From the IMG/VR virus record IMGVR_UViG_3300034013_000139, positions 1 through 46,033 of that record: DNA of 46,033 nt. One strand, written 5' to 3'. This document shows positions 1 to 46,033 of the stretch, one piece after another (the stretch's first letter is position 1; the number at the start of each line of letters is the position of its first letter). The position numbers and the translations under genes are program-made. This stretch comes from a virus. The notes beneath the pieces were generated by a model. It was not told the origin of the DNA. It searched no databases and worked only from the letters and a program-made list of their open reading frames with translations.

Positions 1-573
1 ACTGTCCCCGGTTCTGATGCGAACAGACCCAGCAAGGGGGGCATATCCGTTGCCCGCTGTCAGGATGCCCGCCGTTGCCGCGCTCGTCCCATAATTCGCA
101 AAGCCCGCCACCGCATAATTCGCATCGGGCATCGCAGTGGCGAAGTTGATCGTATAATCCCCCACGCCATTCCGCACGACCGACGACACGTTGCCCGATG
201 CGCGGATGGAGCCGTTGGTGCCGTTGAAGTTCACCCAAGCTCGGCAGGCGTAGAGAGGGGGCGCGCCGGTGGCGTTCAGTGTGCCGTTGAACGTGTCTTG
301 GATAGCCTCATTGCGAATTATTCGCCCCACATCGGTTCCGTTGACATTACCCCTAAACGAGCCGCCATCCCACCCGATGCGGATTTTATCGTTTCCCATC
401 CCTGCCCCACCGCCCTGCTCAACAGGCGTGAAGCCGATCGCACCCTGCACCTGCACCCAAGCCTGCCAGACGTCGGACATTTCACGCCGCCACCAGCGCG
501 CGCCGCTCGTGTAGCTGAACGCTTCCTGAAAAGCGAAGTCCACGGCGTTGGAGGCATAGTGCTTGATCGAAAA
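1..573. repeat. Fibre-tip repeat, copy 1 (matches 44041-44613)
   Basis: The two segments are in the same orientation and differ at only four positions in 573 (71, 72, 87 and 103 in this copy). Similarity falls sharply after base 573 although both sequences keep coding for fibre. The repeat encodes the C-terminal tip of both fibre proteins and starts exactly at the window edge. Confidence 0.97.
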
Positions 574-1350
574 GCTGTCGCCCGCATTCGGCGCACCCGT
601 CGCGCCGGGGTTGGCGAAATACTCACCCGCAACAGTCAGCGTGTTCAGGTTGGTGATAGCAGTCAGCGCATTCGATCCGATGCCATTTATCCCGATATCA
701 GCGCGAACTTCCGTAGGAGTACGGTACTGCAATGCAGTACCCGTTCCATTAGCACGTAGGTAGCTTGTTGCGTTCCCTGCAATTAGCGGTAAATTCACAC
801 TAGCTACGGCTTCTTCTGCTTCGATACGCGCTGTAGTTGCCAACGCAGCTTGAACAGTGGCAGTGCCTGCGCTACCCTCTGCTGCAATTTTAGCAGCTTC
901 CGCAGCAATCCGGTCTGCCGTAGTCTGTGCTACGTTGTCTGCAATGCCATCGGCAATCTCGTTAATCGTGTTAACAGTCTCAGTGATAAGAATGTTATCA
1001 GCTTCTCGGCCATCAGCCGCTTCTTGAACTGCCATAAGCGTTTGCTTGGTAGCACGAACAAGGTTACGTTTACTAACATCAGCGCCTGCCTCGAAATCAG
1101 CCACAAGTTCATCCAACGGAACAATCCGCTGAATAACACCAGTCTGTCCAGAAGTAAGGTCGTCCAGTACGGCCACATCGCCAGTTGCGGCGTTGTACGT
1201 AAAGGCGTACTCTACAGGGTCGCCAAGTCCATCAACAACCCCGTCAACAGTAACGCGAATGTGGTCTGCTTCCAGAACACCCAACGCAAAGTTGGTGGGG
1301 AACACTTGCGGACCACTTGTGTAAGTAAACGGCACTCTAGAGTAAGCCAT
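1..1350 (-). CDS. Tail fibre protein, T7 gp17-like (3' end cut off by window start)
   Basis: This virion protein forms the receptor-binding tail fibre. The first ~150 residues resemble the T7 gp17 N-terminal domain that attaches the fibre to the tail (MAYSRVPFTYTSG start, an ADHIRV segment, then a helical shaft-like stretch). A strong AAAGGAG ribosome site precedes ATG at 1350. The window holds 450 codons with no stop. The last 191 codons (1-573) are GC-rich and almost identical to the tip of the second fibre gene at 43987-45747, while the N-terminal part has the lower GC of the phage core. Joining base 1 to base 44040 adds 17 codons and a stop, giving 467 residues. The gene has its own phage promoter motif just upstream, as gene 17 does in T7. 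Confidence 0.9.
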   Translation of the reverse strand, partial: MAYSRVPFTYTSGPQVFPTNFALGVLEADHIRVTVDGVVDGLGDPVEYAFTYNAATGDVAVLDDLTSGQTGVIQRIVPLDELVADFEAGADVSKRNLVRATKQTLMAVQEAADGREADNILITETVNTINEIADGIADNVAQTTADRIAAEAAKIAAEGSAGTATVQAALATTARIEAEEAVASVNLPLIAGNATSYLRANGTGTALQYRTPTEVRADIGINGIGSNALTAITNLNTLTVAGEYFANPGATGAPNAGDSFSIKHYASNAVDFAFQEAFSYTSGARWWRREMSDVWQAWVQVQGAIGFTPVEQGGGAGMGNDKIRIGWDGGSFRGNVNGTDVGRIIRNEAIQDTFNGTLNATGAPPLYACRAWVNFNGTNGSIRASGNVSSVVRNGVGDYTINFATAMPDANYAVAGFANYGTSAATAGILTAGNGYAPLAGSVRIRTGDS

Positions 1351-1360
1351 TTGAAGTCTC

Positions 1361-1382
1361 CTTTCCATAAAACGGCCCCGGA
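1361..1382 (-). promoter_or_regulatory. Candidate phage RNA polymerase promoter before the fibre gene
   Basis: On the minus strand this element reads TCCGGG, five bases, TTTATGGAAAG. Three other intergenic sites (16955, 32687, 37635) share the pattern with identical spacing. It ends inside the ribosome site region of the fibre gene, the same place as promoter phi17 in T7. Promoter function is inferred from repetition and position. Confidence 0.65.
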
Positions 1383-1406: not shown

Positions 1407-4400
1407 TTAATTTACAACGGCTTCTGTGACTGCCTCGGAAATCTTAGTAACCGGAGCAAGCGTCTCTGCGATAGTCGTTAGAATGTTGTCTTCTTTAGGC
1501 GGTGTAGGTTCTGCTTTATCTTTACCAGACTTAAGCAACTCTACCTGTCCGAACGTACCCATGCGAATAGCAGCCTCTACAGTACGGAAGAACGGGATAG
1601 CCCGCACAGCCTGATTGTCTGAGAAGTTGTTATCGCCAGTGATTACGTCCTTGATGGCACCCGGAGCGCGATACAGATTATTCATCGTATCTACGATAGG
1701 CACCGACAGCGGACGAGCATACGGCCCAAACGTGTTAAACCGCATGTCCTCAAGACCGAGGATACTCATAACAGGATCACTGTACATAGGCATCCATCCC
1801 GTAAGGTTAGAATACCCGAATGCAGTCTTAGCCCGCTCAATAGGATCACGGTCTGTGCCAGTGATCGTATCACGCAAACTAAGCGCAGTGTACGCAGAAC
1901 CATACGCAGCAAGCGCAGTAATCACAGCCTGTCCATCACGGTTCATTGCGTTCCTAAAGAACTGCTTCTGAATTGCTAGGATAGGGAATGTCTGCAAGTG
2001 CGTAAGAGCGCCACCCCATACAGTGTGCATCCAACGAGAAGTCTCGCCAGCAAGGGCTTTCTGGACCTGCTGGTTAACGCTTCTGTTCAATGCTGCTGCG
2101 AAGTCTGTGGCAAGCTGCTGATCCCACAAGTGCATGTTCAGCCGCTCTACATACGTAATGTCGCCAATAATACTCTTCTCAGTCTTAAAGACAATCGTAC
2201 CATCATCGACAAGCTGCTTGAGTGCATCAAAGTGATCCGGGTCTAGGCCCAAGTCTCGCTGTATACGTCCACCAAGCTGGAACTGCTCCATGTCACCGTC
2301 TTTAACAAGCCTACTGATCTTGTCCATCATACCTAGTGCAGCAACTTCCTGCTGATACTGGCGAACAGTGTTCATCAAAGACGTGTAGCCCTGAATGTAG
2401 TTACCTGCATTCAAGAGTTCACGGGAGCGCGTAAGGAATGCACGAGCAGTCTCGTTACCAACATGGAACTCGTTTGCTTCGTCAAGGTTCATGTGCAACC
2501 TGAGCGTATGGTGATCTTGCCCGATAGGCCCCATCATGTACGCAAGGTCACGCAAGCCTTCGCCTGCATTCTGTCGTAGATCATTGCTTACAATACGACC
2601 AAGGCCGCGACCGTACCAGTTCTTAACTCCAACCGATGCGATAGCAGTACCAGTCTCTGCAAGCTGTGCAAGCCCGTTAAACGGCAGCAGGATAAGTGAT
2701 GTAAGCTGCTTCATGTCAGACACTACGCCAAGGCCACGGTTCGTACCGCTGATCCCGTCATAGCCGACTTGTGGCCCACCGTCGAACTCAGAGAACATAG
2801 CTTCCAGCAGTTCAGGTTGCATAGGCTGTTCGCCAAGCGCCCGTTGCTCTGCCATAGCTGCCTCAATCCACTCTTTCCGGTTAGCACGAGAAGTTAGGCC
2901 ATGCCGTGCTAGTGCTGAGTTACCAGCAATCTGCCGAGCATACGTGCTGTACACGTTATCAAAGTCCGACTGCATCATGTCTACGATCTTAAGCCCGCTG
3001 TTTCCAATAGGCGTATCGAAGTCCAGATCATTACGGTTCTTAAGTGTACCGAGTTTACCGCGCTCTGCTACGTCACTGTCAAAGCGTTTCATCAGGCCAT
3101 CAATCGCAGCCCGCGTCATACCTGCACTCTCAAGCGACATACGTAGGAACTCCCTACCGTCTTGCGAGAACAGCCCAATCATCTGATCGTCTAGCTGGAC
3201 ACCACGAGCAACAAAGCGATCCACGTATGCCTTAGCGACTTCGCCAGCAAGCGTGGGATCAGTGAACGTGCCTGCACTCATATACGACTGCTTGTAAGCG
3301 TCGATCAGGTCTGCCTTGGTAATCGTACCATCGTTTAGCAGCTTAACCATCTTAGAGCCGTTCGCTCTATACGGCGTGAAGTGTGAGTTAGGCGCAATGC
3401 GCTCTGCACCAGCAAGCGGGATTTCATTGTCCCGCCCCTTGGCAATAGCAAGTGCTTCCTGTCCTGCACGGTCATACGCATCCGCAGCAGCACGAATACG
3501 TGCATCAGGGTTACGTGGTCTACCCATAGACACTGCGTTCATGTCCAGCATAACTGCACGATAGAACTCAGTCTGTCCTGCTCTGTTAGTCCCGACAGGT
3601 TTGTTGATGCCCGGTGCAGTAAACCACTGCTTACCGTTCGCGGCGGCCCATTCATTCATAAGCGACGGAACTTTGACAAGGTGTCCCGTTACGCGCTTGT
3701 TGTACATATCTGTCAGGTTAGCTGCGTTAGCAACAGACCCACGGACTTGACCGCCCGGAATTTCAAAGATCGCCGCAGCCATTCGATTAAGCACTGTTGA
3801 CTTAGACCGCCACAAGGAAGTCACGTCTCCTGTACCTATCTGGAACAGCGGGTTCAAACTCGCACGTACCCAAGCATCATCCATTGCAGTCTTAACCTTC
3901 AAGTCAAAGTCAGTTGACCATACGTAGTTCCGAGAGGCGTTGATGATGTTCTTGGTCGTCGTAGACATATTCCCTACAGGGTCTTTCAGTGCCGGGAAAG
4001 CGTTTGGTGTAGGGCCTGCTTTAGCAGCAGACAAGTCACCGCCTTGGTTCGGCGTGAACGCTGGAATGTCGAAGTCTTCCTCTGGTGCTGCAACTTGTGC
4101 TGGATTGTTAGGATCGACTGCTGCCGTAGGTTCAGGCGTCTCCATGACCATAGGTGTGTTACGGATATCCGTAACCATACTCGCTGGTACTTCGTCCGTA
4201 ATCTTCGTGTTAGTCGGCGCATAGAAGTACTCGTCGCCTTCTGCAATACGCTTTAGTGTACCTTTACGCAACTCATTCAAAGGCACCATGCTCTCAGGTG
4301 CAACTCCGCCAATGCCTGCACCAAGTGCTGCACTAGTGAGTGTAATCATTACGCCATCAACCCACGATGATACGTCGCTGTTCAGTGCCTCGCCAGCACC

Positions 4401-5066
4401 GATCAGCGCGCCCGCCTGAGCGCCGCCAGATGCCCCGGCTACAACACCACCAGCCCGCAGTGCAGACGTGTCACGCAGGCCCGCCAGCCGCGCCGCATAG
4501 GCAGCTTTGCCTGCGATCTTGGCCCCACCCACCATGCCGCCAGAGGCCAGCACGAGAGGCGCGTCAATGTCGATCAGGCCACCAGCCAGCGACACAACGG
4601 CAGCGGCTCCCCGGTCCAGCCCCATACGGCCTAGACGTGCCAATTCCTCGTCAATGTTCTTGCGTGTGATCTGTGCGCCTTCCAGACTGTCCTGTGCGAA
4701 CACGTCTTCCCAATACTCACGGGGAAGGTCTTTAGTAAGCGCATCGAAGTGCTGTGCTTTATCCCACGATGCTTCGCCCCATCTACCAGCCTGCCCTGTG
4801 ACTGCCATAAGCACATTACCAGCGACTTCAAGTGGGTTCTCAGTAGTGTCTACGCGCTGATCCAAGTTGCGTACAATCTTCGCAGCAACACTGTTATTGA
4901 TCGCGTCAGTAAACGCTTGCTTGGTTGTTCGTTTCTTCTCTGCCTGATGCTGTCGGAACGCACGTCCCTCTACAGTATCTCCTTGCAGGATGGGATCGAA
5001 ATACGTTGGAGTTTCCGCAGCAGGCGGTGCTTGAACTAGTTGTTCGGTATTGGCTGTATCCGCCAT
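1407..5066 (-). CDS. Internal virion protein D, T7 gp16-like ejection protein
   Basis: This very large virion protein (1219 residues, against 1318 for T7 gp16) is the last gene before the fibre and follows the gp14- and gp15-like genes, which is the T7 order. It should be ejected into the cell envelope to form the DNA channel. Residues ~150-260 contain glycine- and alanine-rich hydrophobic stretches that could insert in a membrane; the rest looks mostly helical. I see no lytic transglycosylase motif at the N-terminus, where T7 gp16 has one; a peptidoglycan hydrolase domain is instead in the gp15-like protein next door. About 280 bases coding for residues ~142-232 are distinctly GC-rich (42 of 60 bases in 4441-4500, against 26 of 60 in 3001-3060). 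The start has an AAGGAG ribosome site. Confidence 0.85.
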   Translation of the reverse strand: MADTANTEQLVQAPPAAETPTYFDPILQGDTVEGRAFRQHQAEKKRTTKQAFTDAINNSVAAKIVRNLDQRVDTTENPLEVAGNVLMAVTGQAGRWGEASWDKAQHFDALTKDLPREYWEDVFAQDSLEGAQITRKNIDEELARLGRMGLDRGAAAVVSLAGGLIDIDAPLVLASGGMVGGAKIAGKAAYAARLAGLRDTSALRAGGVVAGASGGAQAGALIGAGEALNSDVSSWVDGVMITLTSAALGAGIGGVAPESMVPLNELRKGTLKRIAEGDEYFYAPTNTKITDEVPASMVTDIRNTPMVMETPEPTAAVDPNNPAQVAAPEEDFDIPAFTPNQGGDLSAAKAGPTPNAFPALKDPVGNMSTTTKNIINASRNYVWSTDFDLKVKTAMDDAWVRASLNPLFQIGTGDVTSLWRSKSTVLNRMAAAIFEIPGGQVRGSVANAANLTDMYNKRVTGHLVKVPSLMNEWAAANGKQWFTAPGINKPVGTNRAGQTEFYRAVMLDMNAVSMGRPRNPDARIRAAADAYDRAGQEALAIAKGRDNEIPLAGAERIAPNSHFTPYRANGSKMVKLLNDGTITKADLIDAYKQSYMSAGTFTDPTLAGEVAKAYVDRFVARGVQLDDQMIGLFSQDGREFLRMSLESAGMTRAAIDGLMKRFDSDVAERGKLGTLKNRNDLDFDTPIGNSGLKIVDMMQSDFDNVYSTYARQIAGNSALARHGLTSRANRKEWIEAAMAEQRALGEQPMQPELLEAMFSEFDGGPQVGYDGISGTNRGLGVVSDMKQLTSLILLPFNGLAQLAETGTAIASVGVKNWYGRGLGRIVSNDLRQNAGEGLRDLAYMMGPIGQDHHTLRLHMNLDEANEFHVGNETARAFLTRSRELLNAGNYIQGYTSLMNTVRQYQQEVAALGMMDKISRLVKDGDMEQFQLGGRIQRDLGLDPDHFDALKQLVDDGTIVFKTEKSIIGDITYVERLNMHLWDQQLATDFAAALNRSVNQQVQKALAGETSRWMHTVWGGALTHLQTFPILAIQKQFFRNAMNRDGQAVITALAAYGSAYTALSLRDTITGTDRDPIERAKTAFGYSNLTGWMPMYSDPVMSILGLEDMRFNTFGPYARPLSVPIVDTMNNLYRAPGAIKDVITGDNNFSDNQAVRAIPFFRTVEAAIRMGTFGQVELLKSGKDKAEPTPPKEDNILTTIAETLAPVTKISEAVTEAVVN

Positions 5067-17010: not shown

Positions 17011-19459
17011 TCAATACTTCATTCAGGTCCAGACTGCCTTGTGCTGGAAGGTTAGGTAGCTTCACGTTGTATCTCTCGGTCAACTCGTTATAGAACACTT
17101 CGAGTACATTCTGAGAGTGCAGACGTACGAACTCTTCTCGGATGATCTTGTGGAAGTCGTCAATGTGGCAAGCGTGTGTACCAAAGTCGTCATGGATCAT
17201 AGCGAAGTCTGTGATGCCTGCTTCAACAGAAGCGTTAAGCACCATCATCATATGCGTTGCATCCATGCTATGCACGAAGTTCGGTGATGCACCTTGACGC
17301 ATACGCCGCACGTCCATTTCGTCTGTGAAGTACTGCACGTTCAAACGGATACCACCGTTGATGGCTGTCTTGACAAGCTTAACGTCTGACTTCGTTGCAG
17401 ACTGGTACACAGGGAAGCCGAGCGGTGTATGATACAGCACGCCCTTGCCATCCTTAGCCACAACACCAACAGACTTCTGTATCCAATCCATAGCCTGACG
17501 AGCAGCAATAACTACGTTGCCGATGCTAGACCACAGGATCGGTGAGAGCATGATTGCATGTCGGAAGCCTGTAGTACCAAAGAACTCGTTATCCGCATCA
17601 CGATACCAGTCATAGATACTCTCGGTGCAGGTGTTCTGCGTAGAGCCATACGGCAACGTCATAACAGGACGCTTGGACAACTTACGCGGCATACTCGGAT
17701 TGTCGGGATTGAGTTTGCGGAATAGCCGTAGCCAGTTACGCGCTCCACCAGACAGATCACCTTCGCCAACTGCAAGCTGCTTTAGCTTACCTGTAGCTAC
17801 GTTTGCTACCTCTTGGTAAATGTCGGCGGGCTTGTCGGCTTTCGTAAGGTTGACCGCTTTACCTCCCACATCATCCCGTAGCATAGCGGAAAAGTGTTGC
17901 AGGCCGTTACAACTCCCGTCGAGAGCAATGGGCAAACGCGACCGAAACTCTGCTCCAACTCGTGTAGCTTCTGCATATTCAAAGCAGAATGCAAGAAACT
18001 GGTAAGGTTTGTCAGCGTCTGCCCATAAGGCACGGTTGCCGACAGGATCATCAGCGACAGCAAGCCATTGTTCGTGTCTTTCTTCGATCCATGCAACACG
18101 GGCATCATAGGGAGACTTATCTTCGCCCCATTTATTAGCGCCGTGTACTTTGAGCCAATATAGACCACGCGGCCCAAGTGGTTTCGCGTTAGCAAATTCA
18201 ATGAGTGCTTTGCTCTGATCTGGACCCTGTGGCGATACGCCGGAGGATGCCGCATAAACCCTTCCTCGGAAGTCGCATCGGTAGACATAGTAGAACCTAT
18301 CCTTCTTTTCGAGTTCTGCTGCAAGCCGCAAGTTTCGTACTACTAGCATAGACAATGCGCTGCGCTCTGCTTCTGCTGCATGAACTGCGCGCATATCCTG
18401 CTTCCACTGATCGAAAGCCTCTTGCTCTTGCGGGTTCTCAGGCTTGGCACCAGCCGCCAGCGGACAGGGCGGGAAGGCCAGCGGTTCGGCGGCGGGCATA
18501 CCCACGCCAAGGTTCTTGGACCAGACCTCGCGCATGACCCGCAGGACGCGCTGGTTGACCCGCCACGGGGTACGTTGCATCGCGTTGACCGCAGAGTACA
18601 CCCCCGGCATATCGGCGCTGGCGAAGCGTTTCAGGCCCGCTTGCGGATTGACCCGCGACCGGATCACCATGGGCGACGTGTAGCGGATTTCGGGCAGGAT
18701 ATATCCACCATCGCTCGGTGTGGTCCACGGCTCAGGTTCGATAAGCATAGGCAACCGATCAGGGAACAGCATAGCCATAGCATCGTCATGTTCGTTAACC
18801 CATTGGATGCAAGCATTCGTAGGGATGATGAACTTCGCCTCGTTACCCCACTTGCCTACCTGATTAGCACGGTAGCCCTGCCGTAGTTCAAACAGGTCAC
18901 ATGCCTGCATTGTAAGTTGTGCAAGGATCAGGCCGACCAGAACACGTTGCGGTTGCGTCCAATAGTCAGGCACAAAGTCCTTGTTACGCTTCGCGGCCAG
19001 CAAGATACTGTTCCTGATGTGGCCGTAGTGCGCGGTCTGCTTTGCTTCAATCTGACGGAGCGTCTCGTCAAAGTACGTCTTGTGTGCAGTCTCCAACTCG
19101 ATGAACATGAACTCGTCATTGATCTTAGAGCCAATGTCAGCACAGACTGATGTGTACAGTCGGTCACTCTCGTACACGCAGGACAGCATAGACTTCAATG
19201 CCATGTAGGCAAGCTTATCTGTGTCCATACCAAGAAGCACCTTTGCCTCTGGCGCTCTGCGTGTTCCTGTCTTGCTGTCGAGATAGTTCCCGATATGCTC
19301 AGACACTTGCTTGATATACGAAGATAGAAGTCGTTTGCCAGCAGACGTATCAGAGTGACGCTCACCCTCTACTGCCTTGTCACGGATATGGTTGTAGCGT
19401 TGAATGCCGCGATCCAACATAGACCGTTCCCATTCGATTTCTTCTTGTATTGTCGTCAT
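16988..19459 (-). CDS. DNA-directed RNA polymerase, single-subunit T7 type
   Basis: This enzyme (823 residues) transcribes the late phage genes from phage promoters. Catalytic motifs are intact: motif A with D514 (ALDGSCNGLQHF), motif B with K596 and Y604 (KRPVMTLPYGS), and motif C with D757 (MIHDDFGTHA), the equivalents of D537, K631, Y639 and D812 in T7. The promoter-specificity loop region follows TPLGFPVYQ at ~678. ATG at 19459 has an AAGGAG site and overlaps the endonuclease VII stop. Its place next to the structural genes is phiKMV-like. About 280 bases coding for residues ~246-340 are GC-rich (41 of 60 in 18481-18540, against 29 of 60 in 17101-17160), suggesting a recombined patch. Confidence 0.97.
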   Translation of the reverse strand: MTTIQEEIEWERSMLDRGIQRYNHIRDKAVEGERHSDTSAGKRLLSSYIKQVSEHIGNYLDSKTGTRRAPEAKVLLGMDTDKLAYMALKSMLSCVYESDRLYTSVCADIGSKINDEFMFIELETAHKTYFDETLRQIEAKQTAHYGHIRNSILLAAKRNKDFVPDYWTQPQRVLVGLILAQLTMQACDLFELRQGYRANQVGKWGNEAKFIIPTNACIQWVNEHDDAMAMLFPDRLPMLIEPEPWTTPSDGGYILPEIRYTSPMVIRSRVNPQAGLKRFASADMPGVYSAVNAMQRTPWRVNQRVLRVMREVWSKNLGVGMPAAEPLAFPPCPLAAGAKPENPQEQEAFDQWKQDMRAVHAAEAERSALSMLVVRNLRLAAELEKKDRFYYVYRCDFRGRVYAASSGVSPQGPDQSKALIEFANAKPLGPRGLYWLKVHGANKWGEDKSPYDARVAWIEERHEQWLAVADDPVGNRALWADADKPYQFLAFCFEYAEATRVGAEFRSRLPIALDGSCNGLQHFSAMLRDDVGGKAVNLTKADKPADIYQEVANVATGKLKQLAVGEGDLSGGARNWLRLFRKLNPDNPSMPRKLSKRPVMTLPYGSTQNTCTESIYDWYRDADNEFFGTTGFRHAIMLSPILWSSIGNVVIAARQAMDWIQKSVGVVAKDGKGVLYHTPLGFPVYQSATKSDVKLVKTAINGGIRLNVQYFTDEMDVRRMRQGASPNFVHSMDATHMMMVLNASVEAGITDFAMIHDDFGTHACHIDDFHKIIREEFVRLHSQNVLEVFYNELTERYNVKLPNLPAQGSLDLNEVLTSPFFFG

Positions 19460-36560: not shown

Positions 36561-37109
36561 CTAGCTATACGCTGATACCCATTGCTAATGCAAAGATCAT
36601 GTTGGCATGACTTAGTAACGCTATATAGATCGGGTGTAGTGCGCTTTCCCGTGTAGCCTTTATGTATACGCTATTAGGGCGACCAGCACTGTGCTAAGCA
36701 ATGCGTTGTCCTTTACCCGACAAGTCGGTGTCACTGGTGCATCGCAGGCCGGGTCCACGGTTATCCTGCTACTGTACGGCCTATCCAGCCACCCTAACGG
36801 TTATGCCGCATTGTGTAACTATTGCCACACTCAACAGCGCCGCATCATAGGGATGCACATATCACCTGTTTTCGACAAGGCACAGTCAAGCCCGTTCCTT
36901 TATAGTGCGGTCGCAGCACTCGCCCGGTCGCAGAACTCAGCATCACTGCCTTGCCCTACGTCTAGACACTATTCACCCAAAGCCGCAGGCGGTTCATTCG
37001 TTCAGCGCTTCCCAAGCCCGCAGGCCCTTCCTGTCGCTTACTAGGGATGCCGTTCCCTGTCGCTTTCGATGTTTATAGTTATACAGGCTTTTTCGGTACG
37101 TTCAAGCAC

Positions 37110-37136
37110 AAAAAACACTGATAAATCAATCACTTA
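37110..37136. repeat. 27-bp direct repeat, copy 1
   Basis: The perfect 27-base sequence beginning AAAAAACACTGATAAATC recurs 87 bases away at 37197-37223. Both lie in the non-coding leader. Short direct repeats near the terminal repeats are a T7 feature. Confidence 0.93.
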
Positions 37137-37196
37137 CAAGATAGTTTCATTTGAACGGTATCGTACAGTTATACCCTAGAACCTACTCAACAGTTC

Positions 37197-37223
37197 AAAA
37201 AACACTGATAAATCAATCACTTA
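37197..37223. repeat. 27-bp direct repeat, copy 2
   Basis: Identical to 37110-37136 over 27 bases. Each copy is preceded by a GTTC or TTCAA segment. Three imperfect 11-base TTCGTT units follow at 37240-37272. Confidence 0.93.
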
Positions 37224-37380
37224 GCCTATCTTGTCCTATGTTCGTTGCTAATTCGTTCCTGATTCGTTCTCTTCTGCCTGTTGTGTATGAATAGATATCG
37301 CGCGTGTAGTATATTCTTATACGCGCGTGTATGCCTTGCTTGCATGGTATCCAGCGACCATACCTAACTACAGGTTGAGT

Positions 37381-37560
37381 GCTTATTATAGGTATATTAA
37401 GACTATATTAAGAAGATATATTAACTTAATATATTATAAGTAATATTATACATATATTATCTTAATATCTTATCTAATACTTAATAAGACTATATTATAA
37501 CCTATTATATACATATCATATATAACGTATGTACCATACACTGTAACTGATACCTTAATC
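37381..37560. other. Very AT-rich block in the leader
   Basis: The first 60 bases contain only ten G or C, and the block is dense in TATA and TTAATAT steps. It is a candidate easily melted region for replication initiation or a cluster of host promoter -10 elements. No unique -35/-10 pair stands out. Confidence 0.6.
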
Positions 37561-37634
37561 AGTCTTATATCTAACAGTTATAATCTGCTCTGTTATTCGG
37601 TAAGACATAGATACACTGGATCAGTGAGTATGTA

Positions 37635-37656
37635 TTATCCATAAAGGATACCCGGA
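37635..37656 (-). promoter_or_regulatory. Candidate phage RNA polymerase promoter in the leader
   Basis: On the minus strand it reads CTTCCGGG, TATCC, TTTATGGATAA, with the same 5-base spacing as the other three copies. Transcription from here would run through the leader into the early genes. Confidence 0.65.
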
Positions 37657-37893
37657 AGCTAAGGCATTGATAATCAATGATTAATTAATGGTTTATAACA
37701 GTAGGGCTAACAGGCACTAATTGAGTTTAACATATGAGTTATTCATGCAGGTTATATGAGTGAAAAGGTAATTGATGCACACACAAGCCTGCATGATATC
37801 AAGCAATGATCAATCAATGATTAACCCATGATTAACAGGCATACCCCCATGGGGGAACTGTGCGCGCTGTGGATATCTATACCTCCACACAAT

Positions 37894-42812: not shown

Positions 42813-43159
42813 TAATCCTCTCCTACAACTCGAAGCTGTGATAGTTCAGTGACGTTCGCGCGCTTCTTACGGCGGTCTTCTAGACCTTTCTGCAAAGCAC
42901 TGATCTTGTCAACTTGCTCGTCGTCAAACCTGATTTCGTTGTTCTTGAGGAACGCCGTGATAGCGTTCATCATCGCCGGGTTCGGCATTGCTCCTTCGTC
43001 AAAGATTTCCTTAAGGATTTCATCTTCAACATCATCAAGGTTAACAGCGTCTAGTGCATCCAACCGCTGCTCGTACCTAAGAAGAACCTTCTCAAATACG
43101 GCAGCGATCTTTGCATGTAGTGCGCCGAGTTTAACCTCTGTTGCTGCACCTTTTGCCAT
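42812..43159 (-). CDS. Terminase small subunit, T7 gp18-like
   Basis: The 115-residue helical protein (MAKGAATEVKLGALHAKI) lies directly before the large subunit and overlaps it by one base. DNA-recognition proteins of this size and charge guide packaging in T7-like phages. The start at 43159 is in a TAATG overlap with the membrane-protein gene upstream; a longer frame lacks support. Confidence 0.85.
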   Translation of the reverse strand: MAKGAATEVKLGALHAKIAAVFEKVLLRYEQRLDALDAVNLDDVEDEILKEIFDEGAMPNPAMMNAITAFLKNNEIRFDDEQVDKISALQKGLEDRRKKRANVTELSQLRVVGED

Positions 43160-43431
43160 TATATTCCAAATACCTTTACTACTACGGTGATAATCAAAGG
43201 CACTACCATGGAGATAGTAGCAATGATCCCTGCCATTTTCCACTGGAACTGTTCTAGGCGCGTAATACGCTTGTCCTGATTGCTCAGAGCATCGCGGATT
43301 TCATGCCTGTGTTCCTTGAGGTCGGTGCGGCTGTTCTCCATAGACGTAATTAGGTGCTTTACATCGCTTCTAATCTCGCCCAAAGCTACTCCAAAAGTGT
43401 CCTTCGTGTCTGGTTGATGTGATGTCGTCAT
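43159..43431 (-). CDS. Membrane protein with coiled coil, possible gp17.5-like holin (90 aa)
   Basis: The protein has a charged coiled-coil region (~15-63) and one C-terminal membrane segment (~66-87, MAGIIATISMVVPLIITVVVKV). T7 has its holin gene 17.5 exactly here, between fibre and small terminase. The layout also resembles XhlA-type lysis accessory proteins. It overlaps both neighbours. Confidence 0.65.
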   Translation of the reverse strand: MTTSHQPDTKDTFGVALGEIRSDVKHLITSMENSRTDLKEHRHEIRDALSNQDKRITRLEQFQWKMAGIIATISMVVPLIITVVVKVFGI

Positions 43432-43976
43432 GCGTCTTTCCAGTACTTGTCGTCAGTGTAGTCTTTTGGAATGCTAGGGGCATCCTTAATAAACCACCCT
43501 GCCTGAAACATTTTGCTTACAAACTCAGCAGACCGCGACCATAATTCAATAATCTCCAACTGCGTGAGTTCATACACGTAATCCGTGTTGTCTCTGAACA
43601 GTGTAATTACTGCGCCTTGGCCTTGAGCAACTCGCATACTTGCTGCAAAAGCAAGTGCCTGCAAGTTCTCTTTGGTCGTGTTATCTCCGCGCAAGGAAAT
43701 TTGCTTGCCTGTTGACAATGCAAATGTTTTTCCTTGCTCGATCCTGCGGTCGCGCTCGGCGTTAATGGCTTCTCCGGGTATTGGTGCCGCATGGATATCT
43801 CCATCGTCGCTCCACAGCCATTCACTCGCGGGCGGTAGATCGTCGCTGTTGATGATGCGGTGCGGTGTGTTTTCAGGGACCACGGCGGCGGCAACGTCTG
43901 CAATGTCAGCATCCGTCGCGGGGGATACGATGACGACACGGTTCTGCGGGTTGGGGTAGATGATTAGTTGTGTCAT
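43428..43976 (-). CDS. Tail fibre assembly-like protein with DUF4376-type domain (182 aa)
   Basis: The middle region (AINAERDRRIEQGKTF, ~69-84) is typical of DUF4376 proteins, which often follow phage fibre genes and are thought to help fibre folding. The start MTQLIIYPNPQNRVVIV follows GAGGAC, ten bases after the fibre stop. The first ~80 residues are encoded by GC-rich DNA like the fibre tip; the rest has the lower GC of the phage core. That change within the gene suggests the 5' part was acquired together with the tip. Confidence 0.72.
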   Translation of the reverse strand: MTQLIIYPNPQNRVVIVSPATDADIADVAAAVVPENTPHRIINSDDLPPASEWLWSDDGDIHAAPIPGEAINAERDRRIEQGKTFALSTGKQISLRGDNTTKENLQALAFAASMRVAQGQGAVITLFRDNTDYVYELTQLEIIELWSRSAEFVSKMFQAGWFIKDAPSIPKDYTDDKYWKDA

Positions 43977-43986
43977 GGGCATGTCC

Positions 43987-45747
43987 TCAGCGGAAAATGA
44001 CGACGTTGACGAATTGCGCGTCCTGACCAACTCCGGTCGCACTGTCCCCGGTTCTGATGCGAACAGACCCAGCAAGGGGGGCATATCCGTTGCCCGCTGT
44101 CAGGATGCCCCACGTTGCCGCGCTCGGCCCATAATTCGCAAAACCCGCCACCGCATAATTCGCATCGGGCATCGCAGTGGCGAAGTTGATCGTATAATCC
44201 CCCACGCCATTCCGCACGACCGACGACACGTTGCCCGATGCGCGGATGGAGCCGTTGGTGCCGTTGAAGTTCACCCAAGCTCGGCAGGCGTAGAGAGGGG
44301 GCGCGCCGGTGGCGTTCAGTGTGCCGTTGAACGTGTCTTGGATAGCCTCATTGCGAATTATTCGCCCCACATCGGTTCCGTTGACATTACCCCTAAACGA
44401 GCCGCCATCCCACCCGATGCGGATTTTATCGTTTCCCATCCCTGCCCCACCGCCCTGCTCAACAGGCGTGAAGCCGATCGCACCCTGCACCTGCACCCAA
44501 GCCTGCCAGACGTCGGACATTTCACGCCGCCACCAGCGCGCGCCGCTCGTGTAGCTGAACGCTTCCTGAAAAGCGAAGTCCACGGCGTTGGAGGCATAGT
44601 GCTTGATCGAAAAACTGTCAGTTCCGTTTGGCGCACCCGTGGCGCCGGGACTGGAGAAATACTCACCCGCGACAGTCAGCGTGTCTAGATTGGTGATCGT
44701 CGGCGCGGTTTCCGATCCGATGCCGTTGATGGACAGGTAGGCGCGATAATCAGCAGGTGTTCCAAGCGCCGCCCGAAACGCCGCCTTATTCGGAATATCA
44801 GCGCCGTTCTGCGACTTCTGAAGCATGTCAGCCGTTGCGAACGCGCCGAACCCGATGATCTCGATACTGTCACCGACAGCCGCGCCCGTCGCCAGCGTTA
44901 TCGACGTGCCGTTCAGGGCAGTGAAATCATCGCCCGAAACCAGCTTCACGCCGTTCAGATATACCGTCACGAAACCGATGTCATACACAGCGGCAAAGAC
45001 GGTCTGCCCAGCCGTGGCGGTATAGGCATATTGGGCGATCATCCCGTTCACCGAGGACGCCGCGTTGACCCACGCCGCGCTTGCCCTGACTTTCATCCGG
45101 TTATCGACGGTATCGAAATACAGATCACCCGTCAGCAACGGCCCGCCATTATTCCGCAGCGTAGGCGCGACAGCCTTCGGCCCCTGATACACGTCCGCGA
45201 AATTCGTCACATCCACGATGTTATCGGCCACGATCGCGACATCAGCCACGTTCGCCGCGACCGTATCGACATCAGCGATATTCGCAGCCACGGTATCGAC
45301 CGCCACCACGCTATCGGCCACGCGCACGATGTCAGCCACCAGCGCGTCGAGATCGAACGTCGCAGCGCCGACCGGGATTTTCACCGACCGATCCACTTGT
45401 TCCTGAAGTTGCTGATCCCGCATGACGCCGAGATCAAGGGCGTCTTCGATGGTCTGAGCGTAATACGCGCCCTGATTTTCCAGATCGGTCTGTTGCGTGA
45501 ACGGCGCGTTCCTGATCAGCGTGATCGTCTGCGCCGCCGTGGGGGCGACAGAGAACACCACCGACCCGCCAGCAGCACCTACGCCCGTCACCGTGAACCC
45601 GTTCGTCAAGACAGTATCCACGCCGCCTTCAGTCCGCACCACCCGGATATGCGAGGCGTCCAGAATGCGGAACCCATAGGCAAACGATGTCGTGACACCG
45701 TTCCCAGTATAGGGTCCAGATTTATTGATCGCGCTGGGAACGGTCAT
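43987..45747 (-). CDS. Second tail fibre protein, GC-rich, sharing the tip of the first
   Basis: The 586-residue protein has a T7-type adsorption domain (MTVPSAINKSGPYTGNG to PFTQQTDLENQGAYYAQTIEDALD, residues 1-105), then a repeated helical shaft (DTVAANIADV and variants, ~145-185), a beta region and a C-terminal tip (379-586) whose residues to 569 match the first fibre almost exactly. The N-terminal two thirds differ from the first fibre in sequence and base composition (40 of 60 G+C at 45301-45360). It probably belongs to another phage or prophage. The stop at 43987 also serves the first fibre if the ends are joined. Confidence 0.88.
   Translation of the reverse strand: MTVPSAINKSGPYTGNGVTTSFAYGFRILDASHIRVVRTEGGVDTVLTNGFTVTGVGAAGGSVVFSVAPTAAQTITLIRNAPFTQQTDLENQGAYYAQTIEDALDLGVMRDQQLQEQVDRSVKIPVGAATFDLDALVADIVRVADSVVAVDTVAANIADVDTVAANVADVAIVADNIVDVTNFADVYQGPKAVAPTLRNNGGPLLTGDLYFDTVDNRMKVRASAAWVNAASSVNGMIAQYAYTATAGQTVFAAVYDIGFVTVYLNGVKLVSGDDFTALNGTSITLATGAAVGDSIEIIGFGAFATADMLQKSQNGADIPNKAAFRAALGTPADYRAYLSINGIGSETAPTITNLDTLTVAGEYFSSPGATGAPNGTDSFSIKHYASNAVDFAFQEAFSYTSGARWWRREMSDVWQAWVQVQGAIGFTPVEQGGGAGMGNDKIRIGWDGGSFRGNVNGTDVGRIIRNEAIQDTFNGTLNATGAPPLYACRAWVNFNGTNGSIRASGNVSSVVRNGVGDYTINFATAMPDANYAVAGFANYGPSAATWGILTAGNGYAPLAGSVRIRTGDSATGVGQDAQFVNVVIFR
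44041..44613. repeat. Fibre-tip repeat, copy 2 (matches 1-573)
   Basis: Same orientation as 1-573 with four differences in 573 bases. After 44613 the sequences diverge at once. The repeat is the only long similarity between the phage core and the GC-rich right end. Confidence 0.97.
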
Positions 45748-45779
45748 AGCACCCCCTTGTGTTCCGAGGCACTATGACC
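45742..45779 (-). promoter_or_regulatory. Inverted repeat enclosing the second fibre gene's start
   Basis: GGTCATAG and CTATGACC are perfect 8-base arms. On the minus strand the 3' arm includes the ATG at 45747, and the AAGGGGG ribosome site lies in the loop. If it forms in the mRNA, it could reduce fibre translation. Confidence 0.55.
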
Positions 45780-45817
45780 GCCAAAGGTTGCGGCCTAAAT
45801 CACCCGCGCGGCCAGCG

Positions 45818-46033
45818 TCACTGTTGCGTCCCGTCGCGCCCAGAGATCACGCCCTGCACCACATCGACTGGCCCGGTCGGGCTGAACCGATCTTCCGCCA
45901 CGCCCACGCCATAGCCCACCGTTCGGCCAAGCTGTCCGGTCGGGATGCCCGTGATCAGGCCAATGGCTTGCAGGCCGTCAATCGTGGCCCGCCGCGCCGA
46001 ACCGTCTTCAGCGACCGCGCCATAGACAGACCC
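45818..46033 (-). CDS. C-terminal end of a large virion protein (partial, GC-rich)
   Basis: The visible 71 residues (GSVYGAVAEDGSARRATIDG to VISGRDGTQQ and stop) continue beyond the window. The LQAIGLITGIPTGQLGRTVGYGVGVAED pattern followed by a VVQGVISG end resembles C-termini of very large phage virion proteins with LPD38-type ends. It is followed by a fibre gene, just as internal virion protein D is in the phage core, so an ejection-type protein of another podovirus or prophage is likely. Confidence 0.6.
   Translation of the reverse strand, partial: GSVYGAVAEDGSARRATIDGLQAIGLITGIPTGQLGRTVGYGVGVAEDRFSPTGPVDVVQGVISGRDGTQQ

Follow-up and report, generated by a model that had tools for sequence, protein, structure and literature searches.

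In phage tail loci, fibre chaperones are commonly encoded directly behind the fibre. Exchange of a fibre together with its chaperone between distant phages is already known from the Alteromonas phage A5 and V22 systems, in which the chaperones end in a DUF4376 domain (PMC10579305, PMC7289586). Active V22 fibres require gp27, a protein grouped with others that end in DUF4376 (PMC7289586); the A5 fibre works in the absence of its chaperone (PMC10579305), so dependence on the chaperone varies. Features of this type of chaperone (V22 gp27, A5 gp9) are strands at the N-terminus that pair with the tip of the fibre, and a body of helices with a beta-hairpin. In Pam3 gp25 the fibre is held by residues 1–55, and the helices at the C-terminus form the trimer (PMC9608196).

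Here we analyse a locus in IMG/VR record IMGVR_UViG_3300034013_000139 (positions 1–46,033, the whole stretch, hereafter the window), in which a fibre tip and the beginning of the DUF4376 gene behind it appear to have travelled together. Within that gene we call the first 62 codons the front and the DUF4376 domain the back (Table 1). The explanation that we favour, and that we hold to be fairly probable as a whole, combines three elements: an assembly chimera at the end of the record, exchange of a block made of tip and front, and a front that acts as a tip-binding module carried with the tip.

Table 1. Coordinates in the window of the features discussed, with the evidence for each
Feature	Coordinates	Strand	Evidence
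N-terminal part of the real phage's fibre, T7-type, ∼50% GC	613..1368	-	PF03906; 51% to L043; 100% to L042
GC-rich stalk end and tip of the real fibre; the record breaks inside the tip at position 1	1..612	-	phrog_11355; continuation into 44040 in L042; GC block
Small core-phage gene behind the DUF4376 gene	43159..43431	-	Similar-looking gene directly behind the L043 fibre (resemblance by eye)
Back: DUF4376 domain, core composition	43428..43790	-	PF14301; GC 0.481, GC3 0.50; relative only in L042
Front: GC-rich codons 1–62 of the DUF4376 gene; encoded alone in most loci	43791..43976	-	Shared with other phages
Tip of the second assembled fibre	43987..44645	-	Single allele switch at 44650–44641; fibre end ...VNVVIFR* at 43987
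N-terminal part of the second fibre, probably of an L003-like GC-rich phage	44650..45747	-	90% DNA identity to L003; absent from L042; phrog_1640 tail protein
3' end of a giant gene, probably of an L003-like phage, cut by the record end	45819..46033	-	End of 2597-aa ORF in L003; phrog_9880

Layout of the record and its ends

Read on its minus strand, the window is a T7-like phage, with a gene for a 1219-aa virion protein (5066–1407) followed by a T7-type fibre that runs from 1368 to 1 and whose N-terminal domain belongs to Phage_T7_tail (PF03906, E 4.7e-6, 26.8 bits against a cut-off of 25.2). At the other end of the window lie a second fibre (45747–43987), the DUF4376 gene, a small gene, and then the region of the small and large terminase. 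GC content is ∼50% except close to both ends, where it is 57–65% or more, and megablast of a window half against known phages gave no match. A separate stretch at 36901–37800 falls to 32–40% GC and has few long ORFs; it is possibly a genome-end region or the early promoters of the T7-like phage.

When the record was searched with its own end, positions 1–690 were found to duplicate 44041–44730 at 96% identity (the first 70 bases exactly, and a further 461 bp exactly further in), and the similarity ended precisely at position 1, which is the end of the record. A second contig of the same phage was available in IMG/VR (IMGVR_UViG_3300042564_001993, 12 kb, here L042), its terminase being 100% identical to that of the window. 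L042 matches the window from 2165 to 1 and then from 44730 to 34107, at 99.4% and in a single unbroken run, with position 1 joined directly to 44040; it carries one fibre of 473 aa with the DUF4376 gene directly behind it, and both the second fibre and the stretch 44656–46033 are absent. That same stretch has 90% DNA identity to a GC-rich contig of 48.6 kb (IMGVR_UViG_3300042363_000610, 60–61% GC, here L003), in which the counterpart of 45819–46033 is the end of a 2597-aa ORF (61% GC), and the window end at 46033 thus falls inside a gene.

Judging from this one sister contig and from the geometry of the end, that is, a repeat stopping where the record stops, we conclude that ∼44650–46033 (∼1.4 kb) is probably part of another, L003-like GC-rich phage and not of the T7-like phage, and that the assembler most likely passed from the former into the latter through the tip common to both. 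On these sequence comparisons the T7-like phage is ∼44,040 bp as a circular map, with 51% GC and one fibre. The original prediction had started from a closed genome, which does not hold: 1–690 copies 44041–44730, 46033 lies inside a gene, and L042 joins 1 to 44040. Because of that junction in L042 and the position of 46033 within the 2597-aa gene, the 71-residue tail of the "closed" first fibre is artificial. The reading frame of the first fibre does cross the junction to a stop codon (527 aa), as it would if the window were a correct circular genome with two tandem fibre genes and a duplicated tip. We regard such a genome as highly improbable, as L042 has a single fibre and a direct continuation, the extra 71 residues are the end of the 2597-aa gene in L003, the end of the repeat coincides with that of the record, and the DNA of the second fibre is 90% identical to another phage. 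Near-identical tips in phages of one sample can thus yield false two-fibre genomes in metagenome assemblies.

At the sites that separate the two tip copies, L042 agrees with copy A for the first 49 and with copy B for the remaining 13, changing over once, between 44650 and 44641. From ∼44645 down the window is identical to the L042 allele, so the end that the real fibre lacks at position 1 is supplied by the tip of the second assembled fibre. This allele pattern is consistent with a single crossover within the tip between alleles that circulate together, or it might stem from a chimeric join at 44641–44650. The join in the window could itself be an assembly switch over a short identical stretch, with the L003-like phage of the sample lacking this exact tip. 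Indeed, 44650–46033 is linked to the tip by assembly only, the tip of L003 itself is more divergent, and the allele switch in L042 lies at the same place. Assemblers, for their part, need exact overlap at a join, and the start of the tip should therefore be truly identical over one k-mer or more; a homologous tip and front are present in L003, and the exchange with two further phages described below (L005 and L008) is independent of the join. We consider an assembly switch at this point rather unlikely, and in equal measure doubt its consequence, namely that the window would give no evidence of recent exchange between the T7-like and L003-like phages.

Composition and relatives of the tip and the front

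Since L042 is free of the suspect join, the composition test was run on that contig. The best two-breakpoint GC block spans its positions 1550–2463, with a GC content of 0.607 inside against 0.49 outside, and its log-likelihood gain (∼19) was reached by 0 of 2000 shuffles of 50-bp blocks. The limits correspond to fibre codon ∼252 and DUF4376 codon ∼78, or ∼613 and ∼43742 in the window. That a GC-rich tip and front would be bounded on both sides inside genes had been predicted from the sequence and is borne out, GC rising to ∼60% across them and the predicted limits (codon 259 and 43740) being close to the computed ones; the further position given with the prediction, 44613, marks the point from which the two tip copies diverge. 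Third codon positions agree that composition is not smooth, GC3 being 0.40 in the N-terminal part of the fibre, 0.705 in the tip, 0.66 in the front, 0.50 in the back and 0.52 in the terminase. When the 44,040-bp map is divided into 920-bp windows, these average 0.510 GC with an sd of 0.029; the highest of them (0.611) falls in the region of tip plus front, and the best outside this block reaches 0.571.

The tip is rich in Gly and Ala, and smaller rises are seen elsewhere (0.57 in the highest 920-bp windows outside the block), as might be expected if its GC content followed from its amino acids through compositional drift or selection, with no import. However, GC3 is also high, at 0.705 against 0.40 within the same gene, and near-identical DNA with sharp homology ends is found in otherwise unrelated GC-rich phages, which makes a purely amino-acid-driven origin extremely improbable. 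As separate observations, GC rises to ∼0.59 at 3901–4800 and 18001–18900, inside the gene of the 1219-aa virion protein and an 823-aa ORF, and these may be other imported domains; in three other T7-like contigs (L072, L091 and L095) the GC content of the fibre is 9–12 points higher at its end than at its start, so tips of contrasting GC are a recurrent feature of the T7-like group.

Conflict between the relatives of different parts of the same two genes was sought as a sign of exchange, and was judged from homology limits in place of trees. The closest relative of the fibre N-terminus, at 51%, is in a T7-like contig (L043) that has a different tip and a small gene behind its fibre, with no DUF4376 gene seen there. 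Whether the query was the complete DUF4376 protein or the N-terminus of the fibre, scans for close relatives returned L042 only, and among all loci the back has a relative in that contig alone. Tip and front have quite other relatives. Among all loci searched, protein identity to the T7-like phage at the tip end is 97% in L005, 89% in L008 and 54% in L003, and that of the front is 70%, 75% and 76%, respectively. At the DNA level, the ∼500 bp of tip end and front are 87–89% identical in L005 and L008 and 70% identical in L003, with best stretches of 90–96% in two of the three GC-rich contigs, and similarity ends inside the DUF4376 gene in all three (43807 in L005, 43808 in L008 and 43783 in L003). 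Outside the tip, the front and the L003 fibre segment, the available stretches of these contigs gave only matches of 63 bp and 123 bp, both fibre DNA. L008 is T7-like, with a terminase 40% identical to that of the T7-like phage of the window; L003 and L005 gave no match to the window terminase and carry other head and packaging families.

The same tip and the same front thus occur in three phage contigs that are otherwise unrelated to ours, which argues that the two moved together. These homology limits support exchange of tip and front as one block of ∼0.6–0.9 kb between otherwise unrelated phages, with crossovers inside two genes. The idea of a unit exchanged with GC-rich phages therefore stands, similarity being practically confined to it and ending at 43783–43808, and the predicted conflict among fibre N-terminus, tip and the two halves of the DUF4376 gene is seen. 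A prophage of the same host had been suggested as a possible partner, for which we found no donor: all GC-rich partners found are contigs of phages, a front profile run against bacterial genomes retrieved nothing, and the tips that bacterial genomes do contain reach no more than ∼50% identity when compared over their full length.

The tip domain and the module behind it

The two tips match a tail fibre tip family (phrog_11355, E 1.6e-14 and 2.8e-17), and the domain is predicted to be all-beta (pLDDT 90). Its model aligned with the Pam1 tailspike (Z 7.8, 1.9 Å over 69 residues), with AP22 gp53 (Z 6.4, 2.7 Å over 79 residues) and with pyocin fibres (Z 4.6–5.0); a search of the tip sequence against solved structures gave no match. 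By family match and model, the tip is a lectin-like phage fibre tip with a predicted beta-sandwich-like fold. The same domain occurs in several other arrangements. Eight tandem copies are found in one tail fibre protein of Synechococcus phage Syn5 (gp46; L151, 1181–3728), a contig of a Flavobacteriales MAG has five successive tip-type domains in separate ORFs and then one front (L185, 2825–8213), Vibrio phages (L153–L155) have short series similar to the latter, and five loci binned to Patescibacteria-type genomes (L167, L184, L198, L204 and L206) have tip domains with no front detected.

A profile built from the fronts of L042, L003, L005 and L008 found 17 further viral loci; in most of these the front makes up a whole gene of ∼60 codons, placed immediately after a fibre that has the same tip domain at its end. 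Loci collected by tip similarity alone have a front behind the tip in most cases. The pair is also present in isolates, among them Vibrio phage 1.009.O (genes 22 and 23), cyanophage NATL2A-133 and Pseudomonas phage PotUPM1, whose annotations list the front as a hypothetical or predicted protein. Bacterial genomes scanned with the front profile returned nothing; scanned with the tip profile they returned 44 loci, with a front directly behind the tip in 27 and none in 17. For 75 of 78 fronts a tip gene ends at most 200 nt upstream, commonly 10–25 nt away, and the remaining three comprise two at contig ends and one with a 533-nt gap. After removal of duplicates, 67 unique pairs remained, 45 with a back shorter than 35 aa and 22 with longer backs; the latter fall into 13 clusters, an upper bound on truly distinct backs since clustering was by BLAST alone (E 1e-4). 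Tip and front distances are correlated (Mantel r 0.456, p 0.0005, n = 65, no kinship correction), a correlation that could in part be due to shared ancestry alone. Tips without a front are common, for instance in several fibres of cyanophages and Rhizobium phages, so a front is not indispensable to the tip fold.

Fronts had no credible match in Pfam, PHROG or NCBIfam (26 fronts were scanned against the last two), and a search of the front sequence against solved structures found no relative. Residues 1–50 are confidently predicted as a domain of their own (pLDDT 86–97). Behind them, PF14301 covers residues 69–167 (E 3.8e-9, 37.4 bits against a cut-off of 25), and the model of the whole protein has strands in residues 1–50 followed by helices and a hairpin, the back being of low confidence. 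In the window the gene starts at 43976, directly after the fibre stop at 43987, and the two genes adjoin in L042 as well. A sequence search with the whole protein against solved structures, including a solved Tfa, gave no match, and the fold search gave weak rows with no convincing match. The best of these, lambda gpW, aligned with 58 residues of the back, where the model is of low confidence, at Z 4.3 and was taken as uninformative. On its occurrence in sequence data, the front is a self-contained module of ∼60 aa, usually encoded alone, and not a fragment of the DUF4376 protein. The prediction that the front of a chaperone accompanies the tip is thus upheld as to the movement and revised as to what moves.

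By analogy with characterised chaperones, the front may bind the tip during folding, or cap it, and the DUF4376 domain and other backs, where present, may supply trimerisation. A tip arriving without its own front would then misfold, so that crossovers keeping the two together would survive, and the linker between domains would be a tolerated second crossover point. A front that contacts the tip and a back that organises the trimer would in this way account for the joint exchange of tip and front and for a far breakpoint that lies close to the linker. Tip and front might also move together merely as neighbours under short exchange tracts, the front having no action on the tip, as their usual spacing of 10–25 nt and the frequency of tips without a front would allow. 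We find this unlikely: fronts almost never occur without a tip, across loci with diverse neighbours and backs, the distances of the two correlate, and the front occupies the position of known fibre chaperones. By analogy with the N-terminal domain of Pam3 gp25, the front is likely the tip-specific binding half of a fibre chaperone and would have to move with the tip.

It is about an even chance, in our estimate, that the front represents an undescribed family of ∼60-aa tip partners in phages and prophages whose hosts include cyanobacteria, Alphaproteobacteria and Vibrio, which would recognise one lectin-like tip type and be the true portable unit, with DUF4376 and other chaperone domains as optional, exchangeable add-ons behind it. 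If the front is the tip-specific half, a small and easily missed partner gene belongs with this very common tip in the annotation and study of fibres. That the receptor-binding exchange breaks off between two domains of one chaperone gene also suggests which half of the chaperone must match the tip.

Comparison with described fibre and chaperone modules

The order of genes, a fibre followed directly by a chaperone gene with a C-terminal DUF4376 domain and shared across phage families, is that of the A5 and V22 modules (PMC10579305, PMC7289586), and the lectin-like fold of the fibre tip, also seen at the tip of pyocin fibres, is common to both. Whereas a larger, multi-gene module is shared in A5 and V22, the shared part here is the tip and only the first third of the chaperone gene; the second boundary lies inside a gene, and the front is found alone or on other backs as well. 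As regards the tip itself, the likeness to phrog_11355, AP22 gp53, the Pam1 and phiAB6 tailspikes and the C-terminal domains of pyocin fibres comes from family match and fold alignment, and with identities of 12–22% in the structural alignments and Z below 8 it may reflect a common fold arrangement.

Pam3 gp24/gp25 and Mu Tfa offer a parallel for the two-part layout, with an N-terminal fibre-binding domain of ∼55 residues, a linker and a helical, trimerising C-terminal domain (PMC9608196). In Pam3 gp25 and Tfa, however, the C-terminal helical domain is conserved and the N-terminal part variable, a pattern that we did not find; here it is reversed, the N-terminal front being conserved and the backs variable or missing. 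The present locus differs from these systems in that exchange broke within the chaperone gene, in that the front is conserved and the backs vary or are missing, and in its small partner family, for which databases have no entry.
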